Below, one piece after another: positions 5,962-44,636 of a stretch of DNA of 64,000 bases. The DNA lies in assembly GCF_003014485.1 (NCBI RefSeq), contig NZ_PYGA01000002.1, positions 434,001 to 498,000 on the forward strand, written 5' to 3'. The notes under the pieces were generated by a model. The model searched no databases. It was not told the origin of the DNA and saw only the letters and a list, made by a program, of their open reading frames with translations. The DNA comes from Murinocardiopsis flavida (lineage in GTDB: Bacteria > Actinomycetota > Actinomycetes > Streptosporangiales > Streptosporangiaceae). Positions within the stretch are counted from its first letter, which is position 1; each line of letters starts with the position of its first letter. Both the position numbers and the translations under genes were made by a program.

Positions 5962-6786
5962 CTAGTTCACGGCGTCCGGGTGAAGGCCGAACCGCTGGTC
6001 GGCGTTGAGCTCCGAGAGCCGCTCGACGTCGGCGGCGTCGAGCTCGAAGTCGAACACCTCGATGTTGGCGCGGATCCGCGACGCGGTGACCGACTTGGGG
6101 ATGACCACGTTGCCGATGTCGAGGTGCCAGCGCAGGATCACCTGCGCCGGGGTCTTGCCGTAGGACTCAGCGATCGCGCCGATCTCCGGGTCCTTGAGCA
6201 GGTTGCCCTGCCCCAGCGGGCTCCACGCCTCGGTGGCGATGCCGTGCTTCTTGTGGAACCTGCGCAGCTCGGCCTGCGTGAGGCGGGGGTGCAGCTCGAT
6301 CTGGTTGACCGCGGGGATGACGCTGGTCTCCGCGATGAGCCGGGTGAGGTGGTCGACCTGGAAGTTGGAGACGCCGATGGCGCGGATGCGGCCGTCGGCG
6401 TACAGCTTCTCCATGGCCTTCCACGTCTCGATGTAGGTGTCGCGCTCCGGCAGCGGCCAGTGGATGAGGAACAGGTCGAGCGTGTCGATGCCGAGGCGCC
6501 GCATCGACTCGTCGAACGCGCGCAGGGTGGCGTCGCGGCCCTGGGAGTCGTTCGCGAGCTTCGACGTGATGAACAGGTCCTCGCGGGGCACCTCGGACCG
6601 CCGGACGGCCTCGCCCACGCCCGCCTCGTTGCCGTACAACTGCGCGGTGTCGATGTTGCGGTACCCGGCTTCGATGGCGGTCTGCACCGACTCAACGACC
6701 TCGTCGTTTCCGACCTGCCAAACACCGAACCCCAACTGCGGCATGCGCACGCGGTTGTTCAGCGTGACATCGGGAACCAAAGGCAT
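5962..6786 (-). CDS. Aldo/keto reductase (2,5-diketo-D-gluconate reductase type)
   Basis: A 274-residue NADPH-dependent aldo/keto reductase. The tetrad is visible: Asp in YRNIDTAQ, Tyr in QLYGNE, Lys in ITSKL and His in FLIHWPLP. The NADPH-binding C-terminal region includes VVIPKSVTASRIRAN. The start at ATG 6786 is chosen for the AGGGAG ribosome site just upstream and for matching family length. An in-frame start 23 codons earlier lacks this. It stands alone between two terminator/repeat regions. The substrate, a small aldehyde or keto sugar, cannot be set from sequence. Confidence 0.93.
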   Translation of the reverse strand: MPLVPDVTLNNRVRMPQLGFGVWQVGNDEVVESVQTAIEAGYRNIDTAQLYGNEAGVGEAVRRSEVPREDLFITSKLANDSQGRDATLRAFDESMRRLGIDTLDLFLIHWPLPERDTYIETWKAMEKLYADGRIRAIGVSNFQVDHLTRLIAETSVIPAVNQIELHPRLTQAELRRFHKKHGIATEAWSPLGQGNLLKDPEIGAIAESYGKTPAQVILRWHLDIGNVVIPKSVTASRIRANIEVFDFELDAADVERLSELNADQRFGLHPDAVN

Positions 6787-6901
6787 GAAAACTCCCTGAT
6801 CAGTAGGTCGTCGGATCTCGTCTTCACCGGACAACCCTCTCAGGTGGCACCACATTCCGCCCGAACACGCCGTGTGACACTCCGATACCCCGCGCCCTGA
6901 T

Positions 6902-6990
6902 GGGCGGGTCCGGGCGGGACCGGGCGGGACCGGGCAGGTCCGGGCGGGACCGGGCGGGACCGGGCAGGTCCGGGCGGGACCGGGCGGGTC
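6902..6990. repeat. Nine-unit 10-bp tandem repeat with 30-bp super-period
   Basis: An uninterrupted run of 10-bp units (CGGGCGGGAC, CGGGCAGGTC and close variants). The order GGAC-GGAC-AGGTC repeats as a 30-bp super-unit at least twice. It begins just after the reductase promoter region and ends 10 bases before the stop of the jelly-roll protein gene. It is G-rich on the plus strand (GGG every few bases), so G-quadruplex formation or variable copy number is possible. Confidence 0.9.
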
Positions 6991-7000
6991 CCGCGCTCCG

Positions 7001-7829: not shown

Positions 7830-7859
7830 CCCGGAAGCGCTTACGCAAGCGCTTCCGGG
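7830..7859 (-). promoter_or_regulatory. Double LacI-type operator of the jelly-roll gene
   Basis: CCCGGAAGCGCTT and its perfect inverse flank a 4-base spacer (ACGC), giving two AAGCGCTT cores 14 bp apart. The site lies 5 bp downstream of the -10 box, where a repressor would block transcription. The same double core with the same spacing occurs at 9095-9118. Confidence 0.85.
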
Positions 7860-8016: not shown

Positions 8017-9048
8017 CTACCGGCGCGGGGGTGCGGTGGAGTCCCGGACGACGAGGGTGTGCGACGTGCGGCGTCGCCGCGGTTTCTCGGCCCGCGGCCC
8101 GAAGGTCATCTCCAGCGCGAGCGCGCCCATCTCGGCCATGGGCAGCCGGATGGTGGTCAGCGCCGGGGCGAGGTCGGCCGCGACGGTCACGTCGTCGAAG
8201 CCCACGAGGGAGACGTCGCCGGGAACCGACACCCCGGCCGACCGCAGCTCCGACAGGGCGCCCATCGCCATGACGTCCGACAGCGCGACGACCCCCGTGA
8301 CGTCCGGGTACTCCGTGCGCAGGCGGTGCGCCGCCTGCGCACCCCCTTCGCGGGAGAACGCGGATTCGAGCACGACGACGGCGCCGGGGTCGAGGCCGGC
8401 CTTCTTGGCGCCGGCGCGCACCCCCGCCAGCCGGTCGGCGACCGTGCACAGCCGCGGGTCCCCGGCGATGACGGCGATGCGGCGGTGCCCCAGTTCGGCC
8501 AGGTGGGCCGCCGCGGTCGCGCCGCCCGGCCGGTTCGCCGGCAGCACCGCGTCGACGGGGATGTGGTGCCGGCCCACCAGCGCGGCCCGCCCGCCGGACT
8601 CGATGTGGCCGCGCAGCTCGGCGGTCGCGTCGGCCTCCAGTTCGGGCTCGACGTAGCCGGACCCGGCGAGCACGATGGCGCCGACCTGCTGGGCGCGCAG
8701 GGTCCGGATGCGCGCGAGCTCGGTGTCGGAGCTGCGCTCGGACTGGTTGATCAGCACCATCATGCCGCGCTCCTCCGCCACCCGGAGCAGCCCGCGGGCG
8801 ATCTCGGCGAAGTAGGGGTCGGAGACGTCGTGCACGATCAGCCCGACCATGGGCTGCGCCGACCCGGCGAGCGCCCTGGCGTGGGCGTTGGGGATGTAGC
8901 CGAGGGAGGCGGCGACCGCGCGCACGTGCGCCGCCACCGAGGTGCTCACCCCGTCGCGCCCCGCCATCGAGCGGGATGCCGTCGCCAATGACACCCCCGC
9001 GGCCTCGGCCACGTCGACCAGCCGCAACGAGCGCTCCGAATCGGTCAC
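8017..9048 (-). CDS. LacI-family transcriptional regulator
   Basis: A 343-residue repressor. The N-terminal helix-turn-helix is LRLVDVAEAAGVSLATASRSMAG (about residues 8-30), followed by a hinge and a periplasmic-binding-like sensor domain (VGLIVHDVSDPYFAEIARG to the end). GTG at 9048 has a strong AAGGGGGA site upstream. It is divergent from the transporter operon and shares its control region with it. The two AAGCGCTT double palindromes (7830-7859, 9095-9118) are its evident targets, making it a local repressor of the transporter operon and of the secreted protein. The inducer is probably a sugar-like compound. Confidence 0.93.
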   Translation of the reverse strand: MTDSERSLRLVDVAEAAGVSLATASRSMAGRDGVSTSVAAHVRAVAASLGYIPNAHARALAGSAQPMVGLIVHDVSDPYFAEIARGLLRVAEERGMMVLINQSERSSDTELARIRTLRAQQVGAIVLAGSGYVEPELEADATAELRGHIESGGRAALVGRHHIPVDAVLPANRPGGATAAAHLAELGHRRIAVIAGDPRLCTVADRLAGVRAGAKKAGLDPGAVVVLESAFSREGGAQAAHRLRTEYPDVTGVVALSDVMAMGALSELRSAGVSVPGDVSLVGFDDVTVAADLAPALTTIRLPMAEMGALALEMTFGPRAEKPRRRRTSHTLVVRDSTAPPRR

Positions 9049-9060
9049 CGATCGTCCCCC

Positions 9061-9089
9061 TTGTCCGAAACATTTCCGTCATCTAGGGT
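9061..9089 (+). promoter_or_regulatory. Promoter of the LivHMGF-type operon
   Basis: TTGTCC (9061-9066) and TAGGGT (9084-9089) are separated by 17 bases, a good sigma-70-like promoter. The expected start point falls at the edge of the operator at 9095. Confidence 0.8.
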
Positions 9090-9094
9090 AGCGC

Positions 9095-9118
9095 GAAAGC
9101 GCTTACGAAAGCGCTTTC
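9095..9118 (+). promoter_or_regulatory. Double LacI-type operator of the transporter operon
   Basis: GAAAGCGCTT, a 4-base spacer (ACGA) and AAGCGCTTTC form a perfect inverted repeat containing two AAGCGCTT cores 14 bp apart, just downstream of the -10 box. The geometry is identical to 7830-7859. Confidence 0.88.
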
Positions 9119-9151
9119 TCCACCATCAAGTGCGTGAACGGAGGAGGGAAC

Positions 9152-10423
9152 ATGCGCGACCGCGGTCCGCTCGTCACCTCACTCGCCGCCTTCACCCTCC
9201 TGACGACCCTCTCAGCGTGCAGCACTCCCGAAGACCCCACGGCCGGTGCCGAAGGCGGGGCCGCGGGGACCTTCGACGCGGGCGCGGCAGGACTCGAAGG
9301 CGAACCGGTGCGCATCGGGATCTCCATGCCCCTGAGCGGCGACTTCTCCGAACCGGGGATCGGCGTCCGACAGGGCTACGAGACCTGGGCGGCGATGGTC
9401 AACGAGTCGGGCGGCCTGCTCGACCGCCCCGTCGAGCTCGTCTTCCGGGACGACGCCTCCGACCCCAACAAGGTGGTGTCGGACTACGAGTCCCTCATCA
9501 CGCAGGCAAAGGTCGATCTGGTCTTCGGCCCATTCTCCACCCGGCTCGTCATCCCCGCGGCCGAGGTCGCCGAGTCCTACGACATGCTCTTCGTCGAACC
9601 GGCCGGCGCCTCCGACGAGGTGTTCGAGCAGGGCTTCGAATACCTCTTCTACGCGGCCCCCGCCGTCGCCAGCGACCACTACGACAACCTCGCCGACTAC
9701 ATCGAGAAGCTGCCGGCCGACGAGCGCCCCCGCACCGCCGCGTACGCCAGCCTGGACGACCCCTTCGCCCAGGACACCGCCTACGGCCTGAAGGACCGCA
9801 TGGAGGCGGCCGGCGTCGAGACCGTGGCCGACGAGGTCTACCCGCCGGGGACCACCGGCTTCACCGCCATCGCCGCGCGCATCGCCGATACCGACGCCGA
9901 CCTCGTCGTGGGGGGCACCCAGTTCGAGGACTCCGTGGGGCTCGTCCGCGGCTTCCAGGAACTCGGCTACCAGCCGCGCATGGCCGCGTTCTCCACCGGC
10001 CCGACCATCCCCGAGTTCGAGGAGGCGGTCGGCGGCGCCACCGAGGGCATCATCTCCCCGGTGGGCTGGTCGCCCAGCGCCGACTACGGCCAGAACGCCG
10101 ACTTCGTCGCCCGGCACACCGAACTGCACGGCGCCCCGCCCTCCGAGGACGCCGCCAACGGGTTCACCACCGGCGAGGTCGTCGCGGCTGCCGTCGAGGA
10201 GGTCGGCTGCGCCGAGCAGGGGCGGAAGTGCCAGAAGGCGCTCGCCGACCACATCCGCGGCGCCGAGACCGAGACCATCGTCGGGCCGCTCCGGTTCGAC
10301 GAGCAGGGCCGCCCGCAGTCGGCCCACCTCATCCAGCAATGGCAGGCCGACGGTCCCGAGATCGTGCTGCCCGACGACGACGCCCGCACCGGCGACCTCG
10401 TCCACCCGAAAGCGGAGTGGTGA
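9152..10423 (+). CDS. ABC transporter substrate-binding lipoprotein, LivK type
   Basis: A 423-residue lipoprotein with the lipobox LSAC (Cys23) after a short signal peptide, followed by a type I periplasmic-binding fold: PVRIGISMPLSGDFSEPGIGVRQGYETW, VELVFRDDASDPNKVVSDYESLI, and a second lobe containing ATEGIISPVGWSPSADYG. This is the branched-chain-amino-acid/amide-type receptor family. The start follows the perfect ribosome site GGAGGAGGG. It heads an operon with two permeases and two ATPases. The downstream sugar-type enzymes suggest the ligand is not an amino acid. Confidence 0.92.
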   Translation: MRDRGPLVTSLAAFTLLTTLSACSTPEDPTAGAEGGAAGTFDAGAAGLEGEPVRIGISMPLSGDFSEPGIGVRQGYETWAAMVNESGGLLDRPVELVFRDDASDPNKVVSDYESLITQAKVDLVFGPFSTRLVIPAAEVAESYDMLFVEPAGASDEVFEQGFEYLFYAAPAVASDHYDNLADYIEKLPADERPRTAAYASLDDPFAQDTAYGLKDRMEAAGVETVADEVYPPGTTGFTAIAARIADTDADLVVGGTQFEDSVGLVRGFQELGYQPRMAAFSTGPTIPEFEEAVGGATEGIISPVGWSPSADYGQNADFVARHTELHGAPPSEDAANGFTTGEVVAAAVEEVGCAEQGRKCQKALADHIRGAETETIVGPLRFDEQGRPQSAHLIQQWQADGPEIVLPDDDARTGDLVHPKAEW

Positions 10424-11316
10424 TCGCCGTGCCCTCACTCTCGCTGCTCGCCCAGGGCCTCGCGCTGGGCGTGCTCACCGGCGGCGTGTACGCGCTGCTC
10501 GCCTCCGGGCTGACCCTGTACTTCGGGGTGATGCGCGTCGTCATGGTCGCGCACCCCGCCTTCCTGTTCCTCGCCGCCTACATCACCTACTTCCTGCACG
10601 CCGTCACCGGCATGGACCCGCTGCTCACCGCCGTGATCACGGTCCCGCTGTTCTTCCTCCTCGGTGTGGGGATCCAGCGGGTGCTGGTGGCGCGGATCCC
10701 GCAGGAGTCGCTGGCGATGATGTCGGTGCTGCTGACGTTCTCCCTCGCGCTGCTCATCGAGGGCGGGCTGGGCTACGTCGCGACCGGGTCCTACCGGTCC
10801 ATCACCGTCGACTACGCCACGACGTCGCTGCACCTGTTCGGCGTCGCGTTCCCCTACGACCGGCTGATCGGGTTCGGCCTCGCCGCGGCGACGTTCATCG
10901 CGATCTTCGCCGTGCTGCGGCTGACCCGGCTGGGCAAGGCGCTGCGCGCCACGATCCAGCACCCCGACGCCGCCCGGCTGGTCGGCATCGACACCGCCAA
11001 GGTCACCGGGATCGGCTTCGGGATCGGGCTGGCGACCGCAGCGCTCGGCGGCGCGGTGCTGTCCATCATCGACCCGTTCTTCCCCGCCGCCCACTGGGAC
11101 TACATCGGCAAGCTGATGGCGATCATCGTGGTCGGCGGGCTCGGCAGCGTCCGGGGCGCGGCGATCGCCGCGCTGATCCTCGGCACCATCGAGGCCGTCG
11201 TGCAGGTCTCCGGCGGCGCCACCGAGGCGGGACTGATGTTCTACGCCTTCCTCTTCGCGACGCTGCTGCTGCGGCCGCAGGGATTCTTCGGAGGTCGCCT
11301 TGCCGAACGCTTCTAG
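10420..11316 (+). CDS. ABC transporter permease, LivH type
   Basis: A 298-residue inner-membrane permease of the LivH family with about eight hydrophobic spans. Typical blocks are LLAQGLALGVLTGGVYALLASGLTL and the EAA-like loop TRLGKALRATIQHPDAARLVGID, ending with LLLRPQGFFG. The GTG at 10420 overlaps the stop of the receptor gene (GTGA); a GTG at 10429 is an alternative. It pairs with the next gene to form the channel. Confidence 0.92.
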   Translation: MIAVPSLSLLAQGLALGVLTGGVYALLASGLTLYFGVMRVVMVAHPAFLFLAAYITYFLHAVTGMDPLLTAVITVPLFFLLGVGIQRVLVARIPQESLAMMSVLLTFSLALLIEGGLGYVATGSYRSITVDYATTSLHLFGVAFPYDRLIGFGLAAATFIAIFAVLRLTRLGKALRATIQHPDAARLVGIDTAKVTGIGFGIGLATAALGGAVLSIIDPFFPAAHWDYIGKLMAIIVVGGLGSVRGAAIAALILGTIEAVVQVSGGATEAGLMFYAFLFATLLLRPQGFFGGRLAERF

Positions 11317-12367
11317 TGTCCGCTCCCCCGCGCCGACCGCGCTGCCGCACCTCCCCAGGTCGGTCCCGCTGCGGATCGGGCTGGGCCTGCTGCTGGTGCT
11401 GCTGCTCGCCTACCCGTGGATCGCGCCGGGTGGCTACCTCCGCTACGCCGGGGTGCTGGTGGTGATGTACGCGGTCCTCTCCACCTCCTGGAGCATGGTC
11501 GGCGGCTTCACCGGCTACGTGTCGCTGGGCCACGCCGCGTTCTTCGGGCTCGGCGCCTACGCCACCGGCATCGGCGTGGTGACGCTGGGCCTGCCGCACG
11601 CCGCCGCGTTCGTCCTCGGCGTGCTGGTGGTCGCGGTGTTCGCCGCGGTCGCCGGGCTGGCGGCGGTGCGGGCCCGCGGCGCGTCCTTCGTGATCGTCAC
11701 GATCGCGATGGTGACGATGCTCAGCCTGCTCGCCCAGGACATGACGTGGCTGACCGGCGGCTCCGCCGGGCTCCAGGTCCCCGGGGCCGTCGCGGGGATC
11801 AGCCGCACCGGCAACCACGCGCTGTTCTTCTACCTGTTCACCGTGCTGCTCCTGTTCGCGCTGCTCACCTGGTGGTTCATCGACCGGTCGCGCTACGGGG
11901 CCGGGTTGAAGGCGATCCGCGAGGACGAGGAGAAGGCGGAGGCGCTGGGCGTGCCCACCACCGCCTACAAGGTCGCGGCCCTCACCGTCTCGGCGGCGTT
12001 CACCGGCGCCGCGGGCGGGCTGTACGCGATGTGGTTCGGCAACCTCGACCCGATCTTCGTCTTCTCCCTGGTCCTCGGCTCGTCCATGGTGCTCATGGCG
12101 CTGCTGGGCGGCAGCAGGTACCTGCTCGGGCCGACGCTGGGCGCGTTCGTCGTCGCCCCTGCCAACGAGTACTTCCTCACCCAGCACGGCGAGAGCCAGC
12201 TCCACATCATCCTGTCCGGTGCGCTGCTGTTCGTCGTCGTGCTGTTCATGCCCGAGGGGGTCATCCCGGCCGTGCAGCGGGCCCTGCGCCGGTTCCGGCC
12301 GCAATCCGCCTCGATCCGCGAACAGACCCAGCAGGAACTGCACGAGAGCAGAGGGGCCGCCACGTGA
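11300..12367 (+). CDS. ABC transporter permease, LivM type
   Basis: A 355-residue LivM-family permease with about nine hydrophobic segments and the family motifs GGFTGYVSLGHAAFFGLGAYATG and RYGAGLKAIREDEEKAEALGV. It probably starts at TTG 11300, six bases after GGAGG, overlapping livH-like coding by 17 bp. A basic tail (RFRPQSASIREQTQQELHES) follows the last span. It completes the membrane part of the transporter. Confidence 0.9.
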   Translation: MPNASSVRSPAPTALPHLPRSVPLRIGLGLLLVLLLAYPWIAPGGYLRYAGVLVVMYAVLSTSWSMVGGFTGYVSLGHAAFFGLGAYATGIGVVTLGLPHAAAFVLGVLVVAVFAAVAGLAAVRARGASFVIVTIAMVTMLSLLAQDMTWLTGGSAGLQVPGAVAGISRTGNHALFFYLFTVLLLFALLTWWFIDRSRYGAGLKAIREDEEKAEALGVPTTAYKVAALTVSAAFTGAAGGLYAMWFGNLDPIFVFSLVLGSSMVLMALLGGSRYLLGPTLGAFVVAPANEYFLTQHGESQLHIILSGALLFVVVLFMPEGVIPAVQRALRRFRPQSASIREQTQQELHESRGAAT

Positions 12368-13095
12368 GCACGCTGAGCGCGAAGGGCCTGCGCAAGTCCT
12401 TCGGCGGGGTGGTCGCCGTCGACGGCGCAGACCTCGACCTGCACGAGGGCCGCATCAACGGCCTGATCGGGCCGAACGGCTCGGGCAAGACCACCCTGTT
12501 CAACATCGTCACCGGCATGATCAAGGCCGACTCCGGCACGGTGCGGCTGGGCGGAACCGAGGTCACCGGCTGGTCGCCGCACCGCATCGCGCACGCCGGC
12601 CTGGGCCGCACCTTCCAGCTGTGCCGGGTCTTCCCGCGGCTCACCGTCATGGAGAACATGCTCGTGTCGCTGCGCCGCCCGCGGCTGCGCGACATCCTCG
12701 GCGGCCTCACCAGCAAGGCCGACGTCGAGGTGGCGATGGGCTGGCTGGAGCGCGTGGGCCTGGACCACCTCGCGGGCACCGACGCCAGGGACCTGTCCTA
12801 CGGCCAGCAGAAACTGCTGGAGCTGGCCGCGGTCCTGATGGCCGACCCGCAGCTCATCCTGCTGGACGAACCGGCGGGCGGGGTCAACCCCGCCCTCATC
12901 GACCGCATCGGCGACCTGGTGCGCGACCTCAACGCCGAGGGCCGCACCTTCCTCATCGTGGAGCACAACATGGCGATGGTCATGAGCCTGTGCCAGCACA
13001 TCATCGTCTTCGACCGGGGGCGGCCCATCGCGGCCGGCCCGCCGGCGGAGATCCAGTCCGACCCCCGTGTCCTGGAGGCGTATCTCGGTGTCTGA
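12364..13095 (+). CDS. ABC transporter ATPase, LivG type
   Basis: A 243-residue ATPase with Walker A GPNGSGKTT, the LivG-typical AGLGRTFQ Q-loop region, signature LSYGQQK, Walker B LILLDEPAGGVNP and the H-loop EHNM. The GTG start overlaps the permease stop by four bases (GTGA). It works with the following LivF-type ATPase to energise uptake. Confidence 0.93.
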   Translation: MSTLSAKGLRKSFGGVVAVDGADLDLHEGRINGLIGPNGSGKTTLFNIVTGMIKADSGTVRLGGTEVTGWSPHRIAHAGLGRTFQLCRVFPRLTVMENMLVSLRRPRLRDILGGLTSKADVEVAMGWLERVGLDHLAGTDARDLSYGQQKLLELAAVLMADPQLILLDEPAGGVNPALIDRIGDLVRDLNAEGRTFLIVEHNMAMVMSLCQHIIVFDRGRPIAAGPPAEIQSDPRVLEAYLGV

Positions 13096-13981
13096 GCCGC
13101 GAACCGGCACCGGCGCCACCTCGGCGCGGGCCGACAACGAACAGGTCCCGGATCCCGTCTTCGAGATCCGCGACATCGAGGCGGGGTACGGGCGGGCGGC
13201 GCTCGTCCTGCGCGGGCTGAGCGTGACCGTCACCGCGGGGTCGGTGGTGTGCCTGGTCGGCCCCAACGGCGCCGGGAAGTCCACGGTGCTCAAGGTCGCC
13301 AGCGGGCTGCTCGCCCCCCGGTCGGGGAGCGTGCTGCTCAAGGGCGCCGACGTGACGGGGCTCGGCACCCGCGCCCTGCTCGCCAAGGGGATCGCGCACG
13401 TCCTCCAGGGGCACAGCGTGTTCCGCGAGATGACGGTGGAGGAGAACGTCCGGCTGGGCGCGTACACGGTCGGCGACGCCGAACTCGTGGAGCAGCGCTG
13501 CGCCCGCGTCCGCGAGGTCTTCCCCGTCGTCGGGGAGCGCTGGGACGCCACGGCCGGGCTGCTGTCCGGCGGGCAGCAGAAGCAGGTCGAACTCGCCCGC
13601 GCGATGATGCTGGACCCCGCGGTCGTGCTCCTCGACGAACCCTCCATGGGCCTCGACCCCAAGACCACCACGGCCCTGTTCGACCAGATCGCGCGGATGC
13701 GCGAACTCGGCACAGCGGTGCTGCTGGTCGAGCAGAACGCGCGCCGCGCACTGGAGATGGCGGACGTGGGCTGCGTCCTCGACCTGGGCCGGGTGCACAT
13801 CTCCGGCCCGGCCGCCGACCTCCTCGCCGACCCCGCGCTGGGCCGCCTCTACCTCGGGGCCGCGCCCAATGCGTCCGCTGCGTCCGGCGCGCCCGATGCG
13901 GCCACCGCGCCCGGCCCGCGGCCCCCCGCCGACGACGAACCGCCGACGAACACCGCACCCGACGACGGAAGCAGGCCATGA
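13088..13981 (+). CDS. ABC transporter ATPase, LivF type
   Basis: A 297-residue ATPase with Walker A GPNGAGKST, signature LSGGQQKQ, Walker B VVLLDEPSMGLDP and EQNARRAL. It is longer than usual LivF (about 235 residues), with an N-terminal extension of ~25 residues and an Ala/Pro-rich C-terminal tail of ~40 residues that looks disordered. The GTG at 13088 overlaps the end of the LivG-type gene by 8 bp. The stop overlaps the next ATG. Confidence 0.92.
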   Translation: MSEPRTGTGATSARADNEQVPDPVFEIRDIEAGYGRAALVLRGLSVTVTAGSVVCLVGPNGAGKSTVLKVASGLLAPRSGSVLLKGADVTGLGTRALLAKGIAHVLQGHSVFREMTVEENVRLGAYTVGDAELVEQRCARVREVFPVVGERWDATAGLLSGGQQKQVELARAMMLDPAVVLLDEPSMGLDPKTTTALFDQIARMRELGTAVLLVEQNARRALEMADVGCVLDLGRVHISGPAADLLADPALGRLYLGAAPNASAASGAPDAATAPGPRPPADDEPPTNTAPDDGSRP

Positions 13982-15144
13982 CCGAGAAGACCGTCACCAT
14001 CGCCATGAACGGCGTCACCGGCCGGATGGGGCGCAACCAGCACCTGCACCGCTCCATCCTGGCGATCCGCGACAGCGGCGGCATCGTGCTGCCGGGCGGC
14101 GACGTCATCATGCCCGATCCCGTGCTGGTGGGCCGCGACGAGCGGCGGCTCAAGGAGGTCGCCGACGCCGCCGGCGGGGCCCGCTGGAGCACCGACCTCG
14201 ACACGGTGCTCGGCGACCCGGCCGTCGACATCTACTTCGACGCCACCGCGACCGCGGCGCGCGCCGGGTCCGTGCGCCGCGCCATCGCCGCGGGCAAGGC
14301 CGTGTACTGCGAGAAACCGCTGGCGACCAGCGCCGACGAGGCGTTCGAGCTGGCGGGGCTCGCCGCGGCGGCCGGGATGAAGAACGGCATCGTCGCCGAC
14401 AAGCTGTTCCTGCCCGGCATCCGGGCGCTCGAACGGGCCCTGAAGTCCGGGTTCTTCGGCCGGGTGCTGAGCGTGCGCTGCGACTTCGGCTACTGGGTGT
14501 TCGAGGGCGGCCTCGAAGAGCCGCAGCGCCCGAGTTGGAACTACCGGGCCGAGGACGGCGGCGGGATGGTCCTCGACATGTTCCCGCACTGGCAGTACCT
14601 CTTCGAAGGACTGTTCGGGCAGATCACGGCGGTGCTGTGCCGCGCGGTCACGCACATCGGGGAACGGCGCGACGAGAACGGGGCGGTGTACACGCCGACC
14701 GCCGACGACGCCGCCTACGGCCTGCTGGAGATCGACAACGGTGCGCCCGGCGGGATCCTCGCCACCGTCACCTCCTCCTGGGCGACCCGGGTCAACCGCG
14801 ACGAACTGGTGGAGTTCCACGTCGACGGCACCGACGGCTCGGCGGTCGCCGGCCCGCGCGAATGCCGCCTCCAGCCCCGCTCCGCGACGCCGCGGCCCAC
14901 CTGGAACCCCGACGTGCCCAACCCGCTGGACTTCCGCGCCGGGTGGCTGCCCGTCCCCCCGCAGGAGGCCGAGGAGAACGCGTTCAAGCGGCAGTGGGCG
15001 TCGTTCCTGCGCCACGTGGTCACCGACGCGCCGTTCGCGCAGACCCTCGCCGAGGGCGCGCGCGGCAACCGGCTCGCCGAGCTCGCGTTGGCGTCCTCGG
15101 AGCAGCGGCGGTGGATCGACGTCCCCGGGCGGGCGGACCAGTGA
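13978..15144 (+). CDS. Gfo/Idh/MocA-family oxidoreductase
   Basis: A 388-residue NAD(P)-dependent oxidoreductase. The N-terminal Rossmann region starts IAMNGVTGRMGRNQHL (an unusual MNGVTGRMG loop). The family motif is VYCEKPLAT near residue ~110, followed by the C-terminal beta-sheet domain with DGGGMVLDMFPHW. Members oxidise a ring hydroxyl of sugars, glycosides or cyclitols, often at C3. The ATGA overlap with the ATPase gene places it firmly in the LacI-controlled operon. It is proposed to perform the first oxidation of the imported compound. Confidence 0.9.
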   Translation: MTEKTVTIAMNGVTGRMGRNQHLHRSILAIRDSGGIVLPGGDVIMPDPVLVGRDERRLKEVADAAGGARWSTDLDTVLGDPAVDIYFDATATAARAGSVRRAIAAGKAVYCEKPLATSADEAFELAGLAAAAGMKNGIVADKLFLPGIRALERALKSGFFGRVLSVRCDFGYWVFEGGLEEPQRPSWNYRAEDGGGMVLDMFPHWQYLFEGLFGQITAVLCRAVTHIGERRDENGAVYTPTADDAAYGLLEIDNGAPGGILATVTSSWATRVNRDELVEFHVDGTDGSAVAGPRECRLQPRSATPRPTWNPDVPNPLDFRAGWLPVPPQEAEENAFKRQWASFLRHVVTDAPFAQTLAEGARGNRLAELALASSEQRRWIDVPGRADQ

Positions 15145-16310
15145 GCGGCCTGCGCCTGCCCGGCGACGACGGCACCCTCAGCACCTGGCGGCCCTCCGGC
15201 GCCGCCGCCCCCGCACCCGCCGGGGGCGCCCTCCCGCCCGCCGGGGGCGCGGTGCGCCGCCGCACCGCCTACGCCGCGGCGCACGTCGTCGCCGACCCCC
15301 TCGCCCCCGATGCGCCCGGCGCCGTCGACTGGGACGCCACCATGGCGTTCCGGCGGCACCTGTGGTCCTGCGGCCTGGGGGTCGCCGACGCCATGGACAC
15401 CGCGCAGCGGGGCATGGGCCTGGACTGGCCCACCACCAGGGAACTGCTCCGGCGCACCGGGGCCGAGGCCCGCGAGAGCGGCGGCGCGTGGTGCGCCGGC
15501 GTGGGCACCGACCAGCTCCCGCCCGGGCCGGCGGAGATCGACGCCGTCGTCGGGGCGTGGCGCGAACAGCTCGCCGAGGTCGCGGCGGTCGGCGCGGTCC
15601 CGGTGGTCATGGCCAGCAGGGCGCTCGCCGCCGCGGCGCGCGGACCGCACGACTACCACGACGCGTACGGGCGGCTGCTCACCGACGCCGAGGGGCCGGT
15701 GCTGCTGCACTGGCTGGGCGAGGCGTTCGACCCCGCGCTCGCCGGATACTGGGGGCACGCCGACCCGGCCGATGCCGCGCGCGAACTCGCCGAGCTGTGC
15801 GCCCGGCACGAGGGCGCGATCGCCGGGGTGAAGGTGTCGATCCTGGACGCCGACGTGGAGGTGGCGTTCCGCAGGGCGCTGCCGCCCGGCGTCGCGTGCT
15901 ACACCGGCGACGACTTCGCATACCCGGAGCTCATCGCGGGCGACGCGAAGGGGCACAGCGAGGCACTGCTCGGCATCTTCGACCCGATCGCCCCGGTCGC
16001 CGGGGCCGCGCTCGCCCGGCTCGACGCAGACGACACCGCCGGGTTCCGGGCGCTGCTCGACCCGACCGTCCCGCTGTCCCGCGAGATCTTCCGGGCGCCC
16101 ACCCCCCACTACAAGGTCGGCGTGGTGCTGCTCGCGTACCTCAACGGCCACCAGTCGCACTTCACGATGCTGGGCGGACTGGAGTCGGCGCGCAGCATCA
16201 CGCACCTCGCGCGCGTACTGCGGTTGGCGGACACCGCCGGGGTGCTGGCCGACCCGGACCTCGCCGTCGCCCGCATGCGCCCGCTGCTGGAACGAGCGGG
16301 GGTGAGCTGA
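15141..16310 (+). CDS. DUF993 family TIM-barrel protein (DapA-like)
   Basis: A 389-residue protein resembling DUF993 proteins, uncharacterised relatives of dihydrodipicolinate-synthase-type aldolases. Visible blocks are HLWSCGLGVADAMDTAQRGMGLDW, GPHDYHDAYGRLLTDAEGPVLLHWLGEAFDP, EGAIAGVKVSILD (whose Lys is a candidate Schiff-base residue) and YLNGHQSHFTMLGGLESARS. The GTG at 15141 overlaps the oxidoreductase stop (GTGA). The N-terminal ~35 residues are Ala/Pro-rich and may be flexible. In this operon a retro-aldol or lyase step after the oxidoreductase is a reasonable guess, not a demonstrated function. Confidence 0.75.
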   Translation: MSGLRLPGDDGTLSTWRPSGAAAPAPAGGALPPAGGAVRRRTAYAAAHVVADPLAPDAPGAVDWDATMAFRRHLWSCGLGVADAMDTAQRGMGLDWPTTRELLRRTGAEARESGGAWCAGVGTDQLPPGPAEIDAVVGAWREQLAEVAAVGAVPVVMASRALAAAARGPHDYHDAYGRLLTDAEGPVLLHWLGEAFDPALAGYWGHADPADAARELAELCARHEGAIAGVKVSILDADVEVAFRRALPPGVACYTGDDFAYPELIAGDAKGHSEALLGIFDPIAPVAGAALARLDADDTAGFRALLDPTVPLSREIFRAPTPHYKVGVVLLAYLNGHQSHFTMLGGLESARSITHLARVLRLADTAGVLADPDLAVARMRPLLERAGVS

Positions 16311-16464
16311 CGTGCACCGCTTCAGCCTGAACCAGATCACCACGAAGAACCGGACCCTGCCGGAGGCGGTCGCCGCTGGACCAGACGGAGGTGAACCGAC
16401 GTGCACCGCTTCAGCCTGAACCAGATCACCACGAAGAACTGGACCCTGCCGGAGGCGGTCGCCG
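16309..16464 (+). repeat. Tandem partial duplication of the isomerase gene start
   Basis: Bases 16309-16375 are repeated at 16398-16464 (67 bp, one mismatch, period 89). The unit carries the start codon and first 21 codons of the isomerase gene. The first copy opens with GTG 16312, reads 35 codons and stops at 16417-16419 inside the second copy. The functional gene starts at GTG 16401. A codon for Trp in the true copy is Arg in the spare copy. Confidence 0.95.
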
Positions 16465-17234
16465 GGTGCGCCGAGGCCGGTGTCGAATGGATCGGCCTGT
16501 GGCGGGACCGGGTCGCCGAGGTCGGCGTCGACACGGCGGCGGCGCTGCTGCGCGACCACGGCGTGCGCGCGTCCTCGCTGTGCCGAGGCGGCTCCTTCAC
16601 CGGCGCGGGGCCCGACGGCCCGGTCGCCGACCCGATCGGCGACACCGCCGCCGCGATCGACGAGGCGGCGGCGCTCGGGGCGCCGGTGCTGGTCCTGGTG
16701 GTCGGCGGCATCGCGGGCGGCGACCTGCCGGGGTCCCGCGCCGCGGTCGCCGGGGCGCTGGAGCAGCTGGCGCCTTATGCCGCCGAGCGGGGGGTGCGGC
16801 TGGGGCTCGAACCGCTGCACCCCGTGCAGTGCGCCGAGCGTTCGGTGCTGTGCACACTCGACCAGGCGGTGGACCTGGCGGAGCCGTACCCGGAGGAGGT
16901 CGTCGGCGTGATCGTCGACGAGTTCCACGTGTGGTGGGATCCGCGCATCGAGGCCGCGATCGCGCGGGCCGGCCGCCGGATCGCCGGGTTCCACGCCTGC
17001 GATCAGCTGGTGCCGCTGCCCGATCCGCTGCTCGGCCGCGGCCTCCCCGGCGAAGGGCCCATCGACCACCGCCGCCTCCTCGGTCTGGCGACCGAGGCCG
17101 GGTACACCGGCCCGGTGGAGGTCGAGGTGTTCAACGCCGCCCTGTGGGCCCGCCCCCCGAAGGAGGCCCTGGCATCGGCGATCACCGCCTACCGCACCCA
17201 CGTCGCCGAACCGGCGGGAACGCCGTTGCCTTGA
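16401..17234 (+). CDS. Sugar phosphate isomerase/epimerase (TIM barrel)
   Basis: A 277-residue AP-endonuclease-2/xylose-isomerase-like TIM barrel. Candidate metal ligands fall in the expected blocks: GLEPLHP (Glu), VDEFHVWWD (Asp/His), FHACDQ and VEVEVFNAALW (Glu). The family includes IolE/IolI-type enzymes and 3-keto-glycoside lyases. It is the last gene of the LacI-controlled operon, spaced 90 bp from DUF993 only because of the partial duplication of its own 5' end. A hairpin at 17271 probably ends the transcript. Confidence 0.88.
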   Translation: MHRFSLNQITTKNWTLPEAVAGCAEAGVEWIGLWRDRVAEVGVDTAAALLRDHGVRASSLCRGGSFTGAGPDGPVADPIGDTAAAIDEAAALGAPVLVLVVGGIAGGDLPGSRAAVAGALEQLAPYAAERGVRLGLEPLHPVQCAERSVLCTLDQAVDLAEPYPEEVVGVIVDEFHVWWDPRIEAAIARAGRRIAGFHACDQLVPLPDPLLGRGLPGEGPIDHRRLLGLATEAGYTGPVEVEVFNAALWARPPKEALASAITAYRTHVAEPAGTPLP

Positions 17235-21833: not shown

Positions 21834-22697
21834 TCATCGGGCCGCGCGCCGGGGGTCGAGCAGGTCGCGCAGGCCGTCGCCGAGCACGTTGAGGGCCAGC
21901 ACGATCGCGATGATCACCACCGCGGGGTGGATGAGCAGGCTCGGCTGGACTTCGAGGAAGTCGCGCCCCGCGGCGACCATGGTCCCCAGCGACGGCAGCG
22001 GGGGCTGCGCGCCGAGGCCGAGGAAGCTGAGTCCCGCCTCGACCTGCACGGCGAAGCTGAGGGACAGGCTGGTCTGCACGATGATGGGCGCCGCGATGTT
22101 GGGCAGCACCGTGCGCAGCATGATGCGCATCGGTCCGGCGCCCATGACCCGGGCCGCGTCGACGTACTCGGCCGAGCGCACCGTGAGGACCTGGACGTAG
22201 ACGATCCGGGCGAAGCGCGGCACGTAGAGGACGCCGATGACGATCACCACGTTGCGCAGTTCCGGGCCGAGGATCGCGACGGCGGCGATCGCCAGCACCA
22301 CCGCGGGGAAGCTCAGCAGGATGTCGGCGCCGCGGGTGACCGCGACCGCGGTCCAGCCGCCGAGGTACCCGGCGACCAGCCCGGCGAGCACGCCGAGGAC
22401 CGCGGCGATGACCACGGCCGCCGCGGCGACGACCAGCGAGGTGCGCATGCCCATGACGAGCCGGGACAGCACGTCGCGCCCGAAGTCGTCGGTGCCGAGC
22501 AGGCCGCTGCCGGTGAGGGGCAGCGCCACCTGGTCGCGGTAGTCGAAGGGTGTGATCACGGGCGCGAGCGCCGCTGCGAGCGCCGCGACCAGCAGCAGCC
22601 CGCCGGCGATGCTGATGCGCGGGTTGCGCAGCGCGCGGCGCCAGGCCGGGGCGCGCCGGGATTCGGGCGGTGCGGCGGGTGGGACCGCGGTGGCCAT
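21834..22697 (-). CDS. ABC transporter permease, DppC type
   Basis: A 287-residue permease with a cytoplasmic N-terminus, about six membrane spans, the DppC marker GTDDFGRDVLSRL, the EAA loop EYVDAARVMGAGPMRIMLRTVLPN and the ending SFLGLGAQPPLPSLGTM...NVLGDGLRDLLDPR (given in part). ATG 22697 sits two bases from the stop of the DppB-type gene. Confidence 0.93.
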   Translation of the reverse strand: MATAVPPAAPPESRRAPAWRRALRNPRISIAGGLLLVAALAAALAPVITPFDYRDQVALPLTGSGLLGTDDFGRDVLSRLVMGMRTSLVVAAAAVVIAAVLGVLAGLVAGYLGGWTAVAVTRGADILLSFPAVVLAIAAVAILGPELRNVVIVIGVLYVPRFARIVYVQVLTVRSAEYVDAARVMGAGPMRIMLRTVLPNIAAPIIVQTSLSLSFAVQVEAGLSFLGLGAQPPLPSLGTMVAAGRDFLEVQPSLLIHPAVVIIAIVLALNVLGDGLRDLLDPRRAAR

Positions 22698-22699
22698 GG

Positions 22700-23644
22700 C
22701 TACACCGCCTCCGTTCGCGGGTCCAGTGCTCGGATGACGAGGTCGGCGGCGAAGTTCACGGCGATGACGATCGTCGCCGTGGACAGCACCACGGCCTGGA
22801 TGACGGGGTAGTCGCGGGAGCCCACGGCGTTCATCAGGAAGGAGCTCATCCCTGGCCAGCCGAAGATCGTCTCGACCAGGACGGTGCTGCCGATCAGTGT
22901 CGCGAGCTCCACCCCGGTGATCGACACGACCGGGATGAGCGCGGTGCGCAGGGCGTGGCGGCGCACGACCAGCGTCTCGGCGAGCCCTTTGGAGCGGGCG
23001 GTGCGCACGTAGTCGGCGCTGAGCGTCTCCAGCATGGACGACCTGGTCATCCGCGCGATGACGGCGGTCGAGGCGGCGGTCAGCGTGACCACGGGCAGGA
23101 CCAGGGCGCGCAGGTGCGCGGCGGGGTCCTGGCCGATGGTCACGAACCGCTCCGGCGGCAGGATCGGCAGCCACAGTGAGAACACCAGGAGCAGCAGCGT
23201 GCCGAGGACGAACACCGGCAGGGAGATGCCGAGGATCCCCGCCCCGGTCACGAGGTGGTCGCCGGCCCGGTCGGCGCGCAGCGCCGCCCACCGGCCGAGG
23301 GGGACGCCGATGAGCACCGCCAGCGCCAGCGCGATCAGCACGAGTTCCAGGGAGTTCGCCACGCGCGGCGGCAGGTCGAGCATGACCTCGCGGCCGCTGA
23401 TCAGGGACGTGCCGAGGTCGCCGCGGAGCAGCCCCGCCCAGAAGTCCAGGAACTGGCCCCACACCGGGCGGTCCAGCCCCATTTCGGCGCGGATCGCCGC
23501 GACCTGCTCCTTGGTGGCGATCTCCCCGGCGACGGCGCGGGCCGCGTCGCCGGGGATGAGCCGCACGAGCAGGAAGATCAGCGATGCGACGACGACGAGC
23601 TGGACGAGGGCCAGCCCGAGCCTGCGGACGAGGAAACCGCTCAT
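22700..23644 (-). CDS. ABC transporter permease, DppB type
   Basis: A 314-residue permease with the DppB start RRLGLALVQLVVVASLIFLL, the family signature MGLDRPVWGQFLDF, the EAA loop DYVRTARSKGLAETLVVRRH and closing DLVIRALDPR. ATG 23644 overlaps the receptor gene stop by four bases (ATGA). It forms the channel with the DppC-type protein. Confidence 0.94.
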   Translation of the reverse strand: MSGFLVRRLGLALVQLVVVASLIFLLVRLIPGDAARAVAGEIATKEQVAAIRAEMGLDRPVWGQFLDFWAGLLRGDLGTSLISGREVMLDLPPRVANSLELVLIALALAVLIGVPLGRWAALRADRAGDHLVTGAGILGISLPVFVLGTLLLLVFSLWLPILPPERFVTIGQDPAAHLRALVLPVVTLTAASTAVIARMTRSSMLETLSADYVRTARSKGLAETLVVRRHALRTALIPVVSITGVELATLIGSTVLVETIFGWPGMSSFLMNAVGSRDYPVIQAVVLSTATIVIAVNFAADLVIRALDPRTEAV

Positions 23645-25239
23645 CGCTCCTCCAACCAGGTCTGGCGCAGGGCGATCAGCGTCCACGCGCCCTTGGGCGG
23701 GTGGAAGAAGCCCCGGACGTAGGTGTGGAACGCCTCCCCCTGCTCCCTGCGCACGGTGAGCACCCAGGGGCAGAGGTCGAGGACGCGCTCCTCGGCCTTG
23801 TGGTACAGCTCCTCGCGCAGCCCGCGGTCGCGGGTGCGGCGGCCCTCCGCGAGCAGGCCGTCGACCTTGTCGTCGCTGAACTTCAGGTAGTCGGCCCACA
23901 CCCCGCCGGTGCCGACGAAGTCGCGCATGGCGTCGGGGTCGCCGTAGGCGGGCGCGGTGCCCCAGGAGAACGACGGGAAGGTGCGGGCCTGCACGGTGTC
24001 GCGGAAGGTCAGCCACTCCTGGCGCTCCAGGCTCACGTCGACGCCCGCGGTGCGCAGCGACTGGAGGGCGGCCTCGGCCGGCCGGGAGATCACCGAGTAG
24101 CTGCTGGTGGTGACCATCGACAGGTCCAGCCCGCGCACGCCGGCCTTCTTGAGCAGGTGCGCGGCCTGGTCGGGGTCGTACTCGTAGGTGCCTTCGAGGT
24201 CGTTGGCGTAGTCGGCGACACTGGGGGCGGTGAGGCCGCCCGTCATGGGTTCGCCGTTGCCGAGGAACGCGGTGTCGAGGATGGCCTTGCGGTCGATGGA
24301 CAGCGCGACGGCCTTGCGGACGCGCACGTCGTCGAACGGCGGCCGGTCGGTGACGAACCCGATACAGCCGAACCCGAACGTGGTGTCGGAGACGAGGTCC
24401 AGGCGGGGGTTGCGGCGGACGACGTCGAGGTGGGTGGCCGGGACGTAGTCGATCATGTCGACGGTGGCCGAGCGCAGCGCGGTCACGCGGGCGTAGTCGT
24501 CGATCATCGGCGTGAACTGGATGCCGTTGAGGTAGGGCAGTTCGGGGACGAAGTAGCGGTCGAACCGCTCGAACGTCAGGCTCACGCCGGGGATCCGCTC
24601 CACGAAGGTGAAGGGCCCGGTGCCCATCATCGACGTGCGGGGGTCGGCGCCACCCTCCCACCAGGCGCGGGAGACGACGTTGGCGCTGCGCGACGCCAGC
24701 GCGAACGGCAGGGTGGCGTTGGGTTCGGCGAGCTCGAACAGCACGGTGTCCGCCGACGGGGCGCTGACCTTCTCGACCCCGGCCAGCAGCGGGCCGGTGG
24801 TGGTGCCGTTGTCGGGGTCGAGCATCAGCTCGAAGGAGTGGACGACGTCGGCGGCGGTGAGCCGGGACCCGTCGTGGAAGTACACCTCGGAGTGCAGGGT
24901 GACCTCGTAGCGGGTGTCGGTGTCCCAGCCGAATTCGCGGGCGAGGTCGCCCACGATCTCGCCGTCCGCGTCGAAGGCGAGCAGCCCGTTGTAGACGAGC
25001 TGGACGACGGTGTCGCTCGCGCTGCCGGCGGAGATGTGCGGGTGGAAGTTGGACGGGTCGGTCGACAGGCCGAAGCGCAGGACCCCGCCGCGTGCGGGTT
25101 CGCCCTCTGCGCCGGGCCGGACGCGGTCCAGCGCCGGGTCGAGCCCGCCGGCCTGCGCGCATCCGGCGAGTGCCGTGGTGCCGAGGAGGGCCGCGCCGCC
25201 GCGGAGGACCTGTCGGCGATCGGGTTTGCCGTGACTCAT
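23641..25239 (-). CDS. ABC transporter substrate-binding protein, family 5
   Basis: A 532-residue receptor. The N-terminus has twin arginines (DRRQVLRGGAALL) and a lipobox LAGC, so it looks like a Tat-exported lipoprotein. The SBP family 5 core is visible: RYEVTLHSEVYFHDGSRLTAADVVHSFELML, MGTGPFTFVERIPG and VRKAVALSIDRKAIL. These bind peptides, opines, nickel or other amide compounds. It is the first gene of the operon, with a TGTATACG site 80 bases upstream. Confidence 0.94.
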   Translation of the reverse strand: MSHGKPDRRQVLRGGAALLGTTALAGCAQAGGLDPALDRVRPGAEGEPARGGVLRFGLSTDPSNFHPHISAGSASDTVVQLVYNGLLAFDADGEIVGDLAREFGWDTDTRYEVTLHSEVYFHDGSRLTAADVVHSFELMLDPDNGTTTGPLLAGVEKVSAPSADTVLFELAEPNATLPFALASRSANVVSRAWWEGGADPRTSMMGTGPFTFVERIPGVSLTFERFDRYFVPELPYLNGIQFTPMIDDYARVTALRSATVDMIDYVPATHLDVVRRNPRLDLVSDTTFGFGCIGFVTDRPPFDDVRVRKAVALSIDRKAILDTAFLGNGEPMTGGLTAPSVADYANDLEGTYEYDPDQAAHLLKKAGVRGLDLSMVTTSSYSVISRPAEAALQSLRTAGVDVSLERQEWLTFRDTVQARTFPSFSWGTAPAYGDPDAMRDFVGTGGVWADYLKFSDDKVDGLLAEGRRTRDRGLREELYHKAEERVLDLCPWVLTVRREQGEAFHTYVRGFFHPPKGAWTLIALRQTWLEER

Positions 25240-31097: not shown

Positions 31098-31969
31098 GTG
31101 AGCGACCTCGACTCTCGGGGTTCCAGGCGGTCGCGCAGACCGTCGCCGAACACGTTGATCGACAGCATCGCGGCGACCAGCACGACACCGGGCCCCAGGA
31201 GCAGCCACGGCGCCGCGACCATGTACACGCCGCCCTGCTGGATGAGCACGCCCAGGGACGACTCCGGCGGTTGCACGCCGAGGCCCAGGAAGCTCAGCCC
31301 GCCCTCGACCAGGATCCCGACGGACAGCGCGTAGGTCCCCTGCACCGCGACCGTGCCGGACACGTTCACCAGGATGTGGCGGAGCAGGATCCGCGGGGTG
31401 CGCGCGCCGCTGATCACCGCCGCGGTGACGTAGTCGCGCCGCGCCACACTCGCCGCCGCGGCCCGCACCACCCGCGTCATCAGCGGCACCGTCACCAGGA
31501 CGATGCTCGCCAGCGCCGCCGTGCGCCCCGGCCCGATCACCGCCGCGACCAGCACGGCGAGGACGATGGAGGGGAACGCGTACAGCACGTCGACCAGCCG
31601 CAGCACCGCCTCGTTGACGGCGCCGCCCCGGTAGCCCGCCACGATCCCCAGCAGGGTGCTCAGCGCCGCCGTCACCAGGACCGCGCTCGACGACAGCAGC
31701 AGCGTCGTGCCGACGCCCTCGATCACCCGCGGCACCATCGAGCGCCCCAGGGAGTCGGTGCCGAGCCACCACTCCGGCCCCGGCGGGAGCAGCCGGCCGC
31801 CGACGATCTCCGCCGGGTCGCCGCCGAGACCGGCCGCCTGCCCGAGCGCGGCGACGGCGGCGAGAGCGACCAGGCAGGCCAGTGCCGCGCGCGAGAGCAG
31901 GTCGATCCGGCGGCGGCCGGCGCCGCCGGCCCCCGTGCGTCGCCGCGGCGACCAGGTGCGGGTCCCCAT
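31094..31969 (-). CDS. ABC transporter permease, DppC type (amine oxidase operon)
   Basis: A 291-residue permease with GTDSLGRSMVPRV, the EAA loop DYVTAAVISGARTPRILLRH and LSFLGLGVQPPESSLGVLI; it ends in NVFGDGLRDRLEPR. Its start codon shares one base with the stop of the DppB-type gene (TGATG). Confidence 0.93.
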   Translation of the reverse strand: MGTRTWSPRRRTGAGGAGRRRIDLLSRAALACLVALAAVAALGQAAGLGGDPAEIVGGRLLPPGPEWWLGTDSLGRSMVPRVIEGVGTTLLLSSSAVLVTAALSTLLGIVAGYRGGAVNEAVLRLVDVLYAFPSIVLAVLVAAVIGPGRTAALASIVLVTVPLMTRVVRAAAASVARRDYVTAAVISGARTPRILLRHILVNVSGTVAVQGTYALSVGILVEGGLSFLGLGVQPPESSLGVLIQQGGVYMVAAPWLLLGPGVVLVAAMLSINVFGDGLRDRLEPRESRSLT

Positions 31970-32940
31970 CACACACCTCCGTTGCGCGCGGCCGCGCCGA
32001 GCCGCGGGTCGACCACCCCGACCACGAAGTCGGCGATGACGTTCATCAGGATGAACACAGTTGCGGCGAGCAGCACCCCGGCCTGCACGACCGCGTAGTC
32101 GCGGCGGCCGACCGCCTGCACGATGTAGGAGCCGACCCCCGGCAGGTCGAACAGGTACTCCACGATGAGCGCCCCGCCCAGCAGCGAGGCGGTGATCACG
32201 GTGAGCACGATGACCACCGGCACCGCCGCGTTGCGCAGCACGTGGTGCCGGACGATGAACCACGGCGGTTCGCCGCGGGCGACGGCCGCGGTCACGTACT
32301 GCTCGGTGAGCACGTTCATGACCGCGTCGCGCGTCGTCCGGGCGACCGCCGTGGTCGCCGCGACGGCGAGGACGGTCGCCGGCAGCGCCATGGCGCGCAG
32401 GTTCGCGCCGGGGTCGGCGGCGAACGGCACGTAGCCGCCGACCGTCAGGCCCAGCGCGTAGCGCGAGAACACGAAGACCAGCAGGCTGCCGAGCACGAAC
32501 TCCGGGACGCTGACGCCGAGCCCGCTCGCGAGCCGTCCCGCGGCGGCACCGCCCCCGTCGCGCGACCGGACCGCGGTGAGCACCCCCAGCGGGACGCCCA
32601 CCAGGACGGCGGCGACCGCGGCCAGCACCGCCAGCTCCGCGGTCACCGGCAGCCGCTGCACCAGCTCCGCCGCCACCGGCTCCTTGCTGAGCAGGGAGGT
32701 GCCGAAGTCGCCGCGTCCCACGGACGCGATCCAGCGGCCGTACTGGACGACGAGGGGGTCCTCCAGCCCGTAGCGGGCCGCAAGGGCGGCCCGCTCCCCC
32801 GGGGTCGCGAACGGACCGAGGACGATCTGGGCGTAGCCGCCCGGCATGAACCGGACGGCGGCGAAGATCAGCACCGAGACGCCCAGCAGCGTGCCGGCCG
32901 CGCTCGCGACGCGCCCGATCCACCAGCTCGCAAACCGCAT
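31969..32940 (-). CDS. ABC transporter permease, DppB type (amine oxidase operon)
   Basis: A 323-residue permease with YGLEDPLVVQYGRWIASV, GDFGTSLLSKEPV, the EAA loop QYVTAAVARGEPPWFIVRHH and closing DFVVGVVDPRLG. ATG 32940 is preferred over GTG 32946 because the GGAGGGGGAG site is correctly spaced only for the ATG. Confidence 0.92.
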   Translation of the reverse strand: MRFASWWIGRVASAAGTLLGVSVLIFAAVRFMPGGYAQIVLGPFATPGERAALAARYGLEDPLVVQYGRWIASVGRGDFGTSLLSKEPVAAELVQRLPVTAELAVLAAVAAVLVGVPLGVLTAVRSRDGGGAAAGRLASGLGVSVPEFVLGSLLVFVFSRYALGLTVGGYVPFAADPGANLRAMALPATVLAVAATTAVARTTRDAVMNVLTEQYVTAAVARGEPPWFIVRHHVLRNAAVPVVIVLTVITASLLGGALIVEYLFDLPGVGSYIVQAVGRRDYAVVQAGVLLAATVFILMNVIADFVVGVVDPRLGAAARNGGV

Positions 32941-32968
32941 GCTCACTCCCCCTCCACGTCGCGCCGCG

Positions 32969-43610: not shown

Positions 43611-43614
43611 GTGA

Positions 43615-44631: not shown

Positions 44632-44636
44632 GGGGG

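Follow-up and report, generated by a model that had tools for sequence, protein, structure and literature searches.

The catabolic sets closest to the locus described here are known from sugar breakdown. Levoglucosan is degraded by LgdA-LgdB1-LgdB2-LgdC (PMC7676230, PMC10066097), a set of a Gfo/Idh/MocA oxidoreductase, sugar-phosphate-isomerase-type proteins and an ATP-binding cassette (ABC) importer, and the Agrobacterium O-glycoside eliminase set AtOGE/AtHYD/Gfo (PMC10628242) and the C-glycoside set DgpABC combine, for action on 3-keto sugars, an oxidoreductase and a metal-dependent TIM barrel. A similar arrangement is present in Murinocardiopsis flavida, in the 64,000-nucleotide stretch of contig NZ_PYGA01000002.1 analysed here (positions 434,001 to 498,000; the window), where a Liv-type ABC importer is encoded together with a Gfo/Idh/MocA oxidoreductase (GFO), a protein of the family DUF993 and an isomerase-type barrel (APE2), next to a LacI-family regulator. 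In comparison to the levoglucosan system, as given in the consulted sections of its accounts, the window shows no match at the level of LgdA, and it has DUF993, a Liv-type importer and a candidate secreted GSDH partner. In comparison to the O-glycoside and DgpABC sets, GFO is only weakly similar to DgpA (7xr9, 1.6e-6), and DUF993 is not mentioned for them in the consulted sections. In Sinorhizobium meliloti, a homologous barrel and DUF993 are found among SMc04130, SMc04132 and SMc04133, with an oxidoreductase in the same run of gene numbers; SMc04130 (3ju2) and SMc04132 (4dnh) are solved structures. The receptor of that organism, SMc04135, differs in being annotated as amino acid or peptide binding in the consulted part of PMC12542648, where SMc04132, SMc04133 and SMc04135 are listed without function in the table of a PhaR study. 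SMc04134 is named solely as a network regulator in the consulted part of PMC11387232.

The best explanation of the window, to which we give an even chance, is a two-compartment oxidative carbohydrate pathway controlled by LacI. Outside the cell, a GSDH-LamG protein and the secreted product of the 7001-7783 gene, which have the same operator, would bind or oxidise a sugar, and the oxidised or released product would be imported by the Liv-type ABC importer. Inside, GFO would turn a hydroxyl into a ketone, which the metal-dependent APE2 barrel would isomerise or epimerise; DUF993 would then cleave the product through a Schiff base at Lys231, in a retro-aldol (class I) or related reaction. In some genomes a C3 product would then probably be converted to glycerate and passed to glycerate kinase. 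The reactions, the order of steps, the binding of LacI and the nature of the substrate are what we infer from the observed gene content, operator sequences, conservation, predicted fold, invariant residues and linkage.

The DUF993 protein (15141-16310, plus strand; PF06187, 1e-163, 545 bits against a curated cut-off of 24) is, judging by its predicted model (mean pLDDT 93.4), structurally a class I aldolase relative with the DHDPS/NAL fold. The model matches 4dnh (SMc04132) with a Z of 56.6 and DHDPS/NAL with a VIA Z of ~31 (root-mean-square deviation ~2.4, ~290 residues aligned), and Foldseek comparison with the DHDPS/NAL family gave 5.5e-10. Lys231, invariant in 148/148 rows, lies on barrel strand 6 (227-233), which we take to be the place of the Schiff-base lysine in DHDPS/NAL enzymes, and the model makes it the candidate for this role. 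Thus, DUF993 is like the DHDPS/NAL superfamily (PF00701) in its fold and in the lysine on the sixth strand, and differs from it by extra N- and C-terminal parts and by other pyruvate-site motifs; no PF00701 match was obtained at 1e-3, PF06187 being the sole Pfam family reported. Such a fold points to C-C cleavage of a keto sugar as much as to elimination or hydrolysis of a 3-keto-glycoside. A structure of this family has been solved since 2012. No paper naming DUF993 was found in the open-licence literature (subscription work was outside reach), and searches of the same literature for PF06187 and five PDB codes gave nothing relevant to DUF993 function. Nor did searches on the plasmid pAO1, on the products of neighbouring genes and on displacement of transporters (among the entries listed), or on ThuA and sorbosone, yield anything pertinent.

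DUF993 was present in 101/150 genomes sampled from the window's own family, in 24/296 sampled across the phylum, in 147/72,556 plasmid records and in 0/14 control genomes. We ran the analysis of its neighbourhood, which the initial annotation had proposed, on 149 loci, chosen rather than drawn at random: 80 of them are the top-scoring among at least 595 matching stretches, 59 are genome places hand-picked from the family and phylum matches (60 were taken; L149 was left out, having no relative of the window DUF993 by tblastn), and 10 are plasmid places picked from the 147 DUF993-bearing records. Neighbour and importer types were assigned by a probe search with few query proteins. On the same strand and within 2 kb of DUF993, GFO was found in 128/149 loci, APE2 in 142/149 and both in 127/149, while LacI lay within 5 kb in 101/149. 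The trio thus forms a conserved module around which the importer varies, and the idea of a rare combination of DUF993, GFO and APE2 was rejected. Of the set that had been thought undescribed, only the pairing of the trio with a Liv-type importer is unusual (2/149).

Both partner enzymes keep a set of conserved residues. In GFO, an NAD(P) oxidoreductase (13978-15144, plus strand; PF22725/PF02894/PF01408), E112-K113-P114, D200 and H204 (E-K-P, D-x3-H) occur in 132/132 rows; its best solved relative, 3oqb (5e-137), is named just 'oxidoreductase'. Its assignment as a levoglucosan dehydrogenase or an inositol dehydrogenase was rejected, since it falls below the NCBIfam cut-offs. APE2 (16401-17234, plus strand; AP_endonuc_2, PF01261, 2.4e-33) is a xylose-isomerase-like barrel in which the acids E137, D173, E240 and E242 are found in 143/143 rows and H176 in 142/143, with position 198 being His in 24 rows and Gln in 119; 7vpf, 3qc0 and 3ju2 are its solved relatives.

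Other arrangements of the module were seen on plasmids. In three loci from Paracoccus and rhizobia plasmids (L200, L201, L204), DUF993 and the isomerase stand with genes for CoA-transferase, acyl-CoA dehydrogenase, enoyl-CoA hydratase and electron-transfer flavoprotein, and a gene annotated as 3-ketoacyl-ACP reductase is located upstream of DUF993, in the usual GFO position. On the Paenarthrobacter plasmid pAO1 (L203:8736-12280), the isomerase is missing from the set, and GFO, DUF993 and glycerate kinase lie by an aldehyde dehydrogenase and a GMC oxidoreductase.

The link to the outside of the cell comes from the operators. A double palindromic LacI-type operator, AAGCGCTTnnGnAAGCGCTT, stands before the 7001-7783 gene (7835-7854) and again before the liv-DUF993 operon (9097-9116); within the window 4 strand-matches to it were observed against a shuffle mean of 0.04. 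Scanning the genome (7.38 Mb, 2 mismatches allowed) gave four double sites, all of them exact on one strand or both. Two are those just described, a third precedes C1, a secreted GSDH-LamG gene elsewhere in the genome (PF07995, 83.5 bits, cut-off 25), and the fourth lies beside another LacI. Sharing of the operator between the liv-DUF993 operon and the 7001-7783 gene is real at the sequence level, and the window LacI (8017-9048, minus strand, divergent from the liv operon; PF00356 1.3e-11, PF13377 9.9e-35) would be the protein acting at these predicted sites; no match to it was found in the 20 kb around C1. Extension of the importer-enzyme set to a secreted GSDH protein via the operator is supported by these sequences. 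At L214:8978-16513, another LacI, lying by an ABC importer, a nucleoside hydrolase and an adenine-deaminase-type gene, carries a double operator of the same type.

In other genomes, the same kind of double site, with one mismatch, precedes the liv operon of L137. We also looked for the half-site AARCGYTT (Markov expectation 0.05-0.5 per locus) in the window, in L235 and in 18 further loci. It occurs before both the GSDH-type gene and the importer/DUF993 operon in L137/L235, L161, L168, L175, L183, L003 and L005, in L048 only before the GSDH-type gene, and just upstream of DUF993 in L002, L004 and L006-L009, which have no GSDH probe match; L172 has one between LacI and the adjoining gene. Copies inside genes are found as well (L172, L175, L006, L007, L009). 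The L235 sites fall within an open frame, ahead of the point where the signal peptide probably begins, and how far they lie from the true start is thus estimated. As the GSDH-bearing loci were singled out, the half-site counts give no rate.

The 7001-7783 gene (minus strand) encodes a secreted domain protein with a hydrophobic N-terminus in translation, designated DUF1080L and probably concanavalin-A-like. It had been described as a co-regulated DUF1080-like protein. The same operator sequence agrees with the first part of this description, and the second does not hold by Pfam: PF06439 (DUF1080) matches neither this protein nor anything else in the whole genome, so membership in the Pfam family was rejected. 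No Pfam or NCBIfam match was obtained for it at 1e-3, a weak TSP_C at E 0.2 being the lone Pfam match; the single-sequence model had a pLDDT of 34.6, and the PDB profile search returned weak matches, including laminin-G-type ones and also peptide deformylase. In L161, L168 and L175, homologues of DUF1080L (60-62% identical) are fused behind GSDH at most 9.5 kb from DUF993, with the LamG part as a separate gene. GSDH-type probes match near DUF993 in 8/149 loci (C1 type in 5, ThuA-GSDH type in 3). Adjoining the 7001-7783 gene there is an aldo/keto-reductase-type gene (5962-6855), a relative of which, AKR1 (34% identical), sits in DUF993 clusters of rhizobial plasmids, and short GC-rich repeat units (gggaccgggc) were seen by eye directly downstream of the 7001-7783 gene, at 6885-7000.

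The initial annotation had placed a complete LivK/H/M/G/F-type importer beside GFO, DUF993, the isomerase barrel and LacI, and Pfam matches at 8017-17234 confirm this (Pfam/NCBIfam profile scans covered ten window genes). On the plus strand follow the LivK-type receptor (9152-10423; PF13458, 4.2e-56), the LivH-type (10420-11316) and LivM-type (11300-12367) permeases, both PF02653 (pair scores 2.5e-19 and 1.9e-36), the LivG-type ATPase (12364-13095; PF00005 and PF12399, the Liv-type C-terminus) and the LivF-type ATPase (13088-13981; PF00005, start called by eye from the sequence), so that a receptor, two PF02653 permeases and two ATPases lie in one operon, which is the make-up of a Liv/HAAT importer. 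Translational coupling, proposed for the whole operon, is consistent with the stop/start overlaps seen by eye from the receptor through DUF993 (receptor/LivH GTGA 10420, LivH/LivM TTG 11300, LivM/LivG GTGA 12364, LivG/LivF GTG 13088, LivF/GFO ATGA 13978, GFO/DUF993 GTGA 15141); it does not extend directly to the isomerase gene, which starts 90 nt past the DUF993 stop. An 89-nt tandem duplication (16282-16459, copies 90% identical) covers the 3' end of DUF993 as well as the isomerase start, of which the first copy hits a stop.

Importers found by the probes near the module were of NMT1/Ssu type in 12 loci, CUT1 in 8, Liv, tripartite and CUT2 in 2 each, and Opp and MFS in 1 each; the label 'none' of the other 121/149 means no probe match by the rule used and is not proof of no importer. 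The Liv-type importer of the window occupies the place where several relatives have one of NMT1/Ssu type. The Liv label falls on L137 and L138, whose genomes belong to two further families. L137 has the gene order of the window apart from one extra gene, and in its Liv-type cluster a TauE/SafE-family exporter gene (L137:15040-15786, genome G428) lies between DUF993 and the isomerase; L138 agrees in order up to the end of its contig, inside LivH. A quick tree built from 69 DUF993 rows groups the window with L137 and rows of Actinophytocola, Prauserella, Saccharomonospora and Amycolatopsis in an 8-member clade (support 100) and places L138 elsewhere. To account for the 3 Liv rows, the well-supported branches require no fewer than 2 changes, and the 28 importer-labelled rows need a minimum of 13 (L174, the sole Opp row, is absent from the tree). 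The plain reading is that importers have been exchanged around a fixed enzyme core; gain, loss and transfer are not distinguishable from these data. Further importers in the window are three separate Opp/Dpp-type sets on the minus strand (probe matches at 21852-25086, 31106-34333 and 42822-46019).

Several results weigh against the two-compartment pathway. The genome scan with the operator gave 4 forward and 4 reverse matches and that with the reversed control pattern 4 and 5, hence there is no excess; as the number of matches does not exceed the control, it is the exactness and positions of the four sites that carry weight. The half-site AARCGYTT is lacking in L142, L146 and L147. Homologues of DUF1080L were found in 2/198 sampled genomes, the window's own counted, and at most 9.5 kb from DUF993 in only 3/149 loci. 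Hedgehog-interacting protein is a better match for the C1 GSDH protein than are the pyrroloquinoline quinone (PQQ) dehydrogenases, and C1 is devoid of H-x-G-G, presumably the usual catalytic motif of PQQ enzymes; 7/8 GSDH-type proteins are without it in the propeller, only L048 having it in the GSDH part, and the L161 pattern falls outside that part. For DUF993, a profile comparison with four ordinary DHDPS-family sequences was weak (1.7% probability), and MDTAQRG and HWLG stand at the likely places of the DHDPS pyruvate-site motifs, which we take to be GTTGE and Tyr133. Finally, the probes for glycerate-kinase, KdgD-like, enolase-type, uronate-dehydrogenase-like and pectate-lyase-like genes have no match in the 64-kb window.

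This last result also bears on a sugar-acid version of the pathway, which overlaps the best explanation and which we consider possible, at clearly less than an even chance. Here an acidic sugar (uronate, aldonate or hexarate) would be imported and converted by the trio to a C3 acid, e.g., glycerate or tartronate semialdehyde. Among the 149 loci, enolase-superfamily (24), KdgD-like (21), uronate-dehydrogenase-like (12), glycerate kinase (9) and pectate-lyase-like (4) genes were found near DUF993; L194 has heparinase II/III, and L197 and L080 have genes for a tripartite carboxylate transporter. The neighbours in other genomes hint at oxidised or acidic sugars. However, none of these probes matches in the window, and those genes may belong to a separate neighbouring pathway elsewhere; the two glycerate kinases of the window's genome are both on other contigs.

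The 3-keto-glycoside route favoured by the initial annotation is a somewhat weaker candidate, and in our judgement rather improbable as the full account. In this route GFO would oxidise C3 of an imported glycoside, APE2 would eliminate or hydrate as LgdB1/LgdB2 or AtOGE/AtHYD, DUF993 would serve as a further lyase, and the secreted domain would be a 3-keto-glycoside hydrolase. Gfo/Idh/MocA and sugar-phosphate-isomerase-type proteins do so for levoglucosan (PMC7676230) and O-glycosides (PMC10628242), in the sections consulted, and DUF1080 proteins are proposed as 3-keto-glycoside hydrolases in the consulted part of PMC9007349. Alignment of DUF1080L by hhalign to a six-sequence DUF1080 alignment gave 94% over the 56 C-terminal of 255 columns, both alignments being small, and ThuA-GSDH-type proteins lie near DUF993 in L003 and L048 (Pfam) and L005 (tblastn). 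On the other hand, GFO scores 59.8 bits against the levoglucosan dehydrogenase family NF052479, whose cut-off is 650, the secreted domain and the whole genome are devoid of PF06439, and the consulted parts of the levoglucosan and O-glycoside accounts show no aldolase-like third enzyme. The sugar-type enzymes next to a LacI regulator, an importer for which ordinary amino acids are unlikely ligands by the usual contacts and a secreted domain sharing the operator agree with this interpretation, while the GFO score, the missing PF06439 and the commonness of the trio do not; overall it is partly supported, a 3-keto-glycoside step within the window pathway is possible, and this chemistry, like C-C cleavage, is something we infer from sequence.

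Breakdown of a cyclitol or aminocyclitol, in which GFO would act as an inositol-type dehydrogenase and APE2 would resemble IolE/IolO, appears unlikely: the weak matches include IolO and the inositol and scyllo-inositol dehydrogenases, but all lie far under the family cut-offs (among the ten window genes scanned; other iol genes may exist).

The receptor bears on what the importer carries. Its closest solved relatives are amino-acid binders, and at the position where 4n0q, 3ip5, 3ipc and 2lbp have Glu/Asp, which we take to be the residue contacting the amino group of the ligand, the window receptor has Thr; the L137 receptor (76% identity) also has Thr there. This replacement argues against ordinary amino acids as the ligand, and binding of them through the usual contacts is unlikely. 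That the importer carries an ordinary amino acid and lies by the sugar enzymes by accident, as the amino-acid-binding relatives might suggest, is therefore very improbable, the more so as the genes overlap within one operon and keep the same order in L137 and, up to its contig end, in L138, from two other families.

With respect to the biology of the family, DUF993 is common among the relatives of M. flavida, is carried on plasmids and has a solved structure, and no function is given for it in the open-licence papers searched. We tentatively propose, with less confidence than the pathway in the window itself, that DUF993 may be a new class I aldolase family in a widespread pathway that would oxidise outside, import, and then oxidise and cleave inside, with an exchangeable importer (Liv, NMT1/Ssu, CUT1, CUT2, tripartite or MFS) and with secreted GSDH-lectin proteins in the same LacI regulon. 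Our results suggest that the class of an importer is a poor guide to its cargo, and the operators and fusions tie DUF993 to secreted proteins, which gives a concrete chemistry to test.

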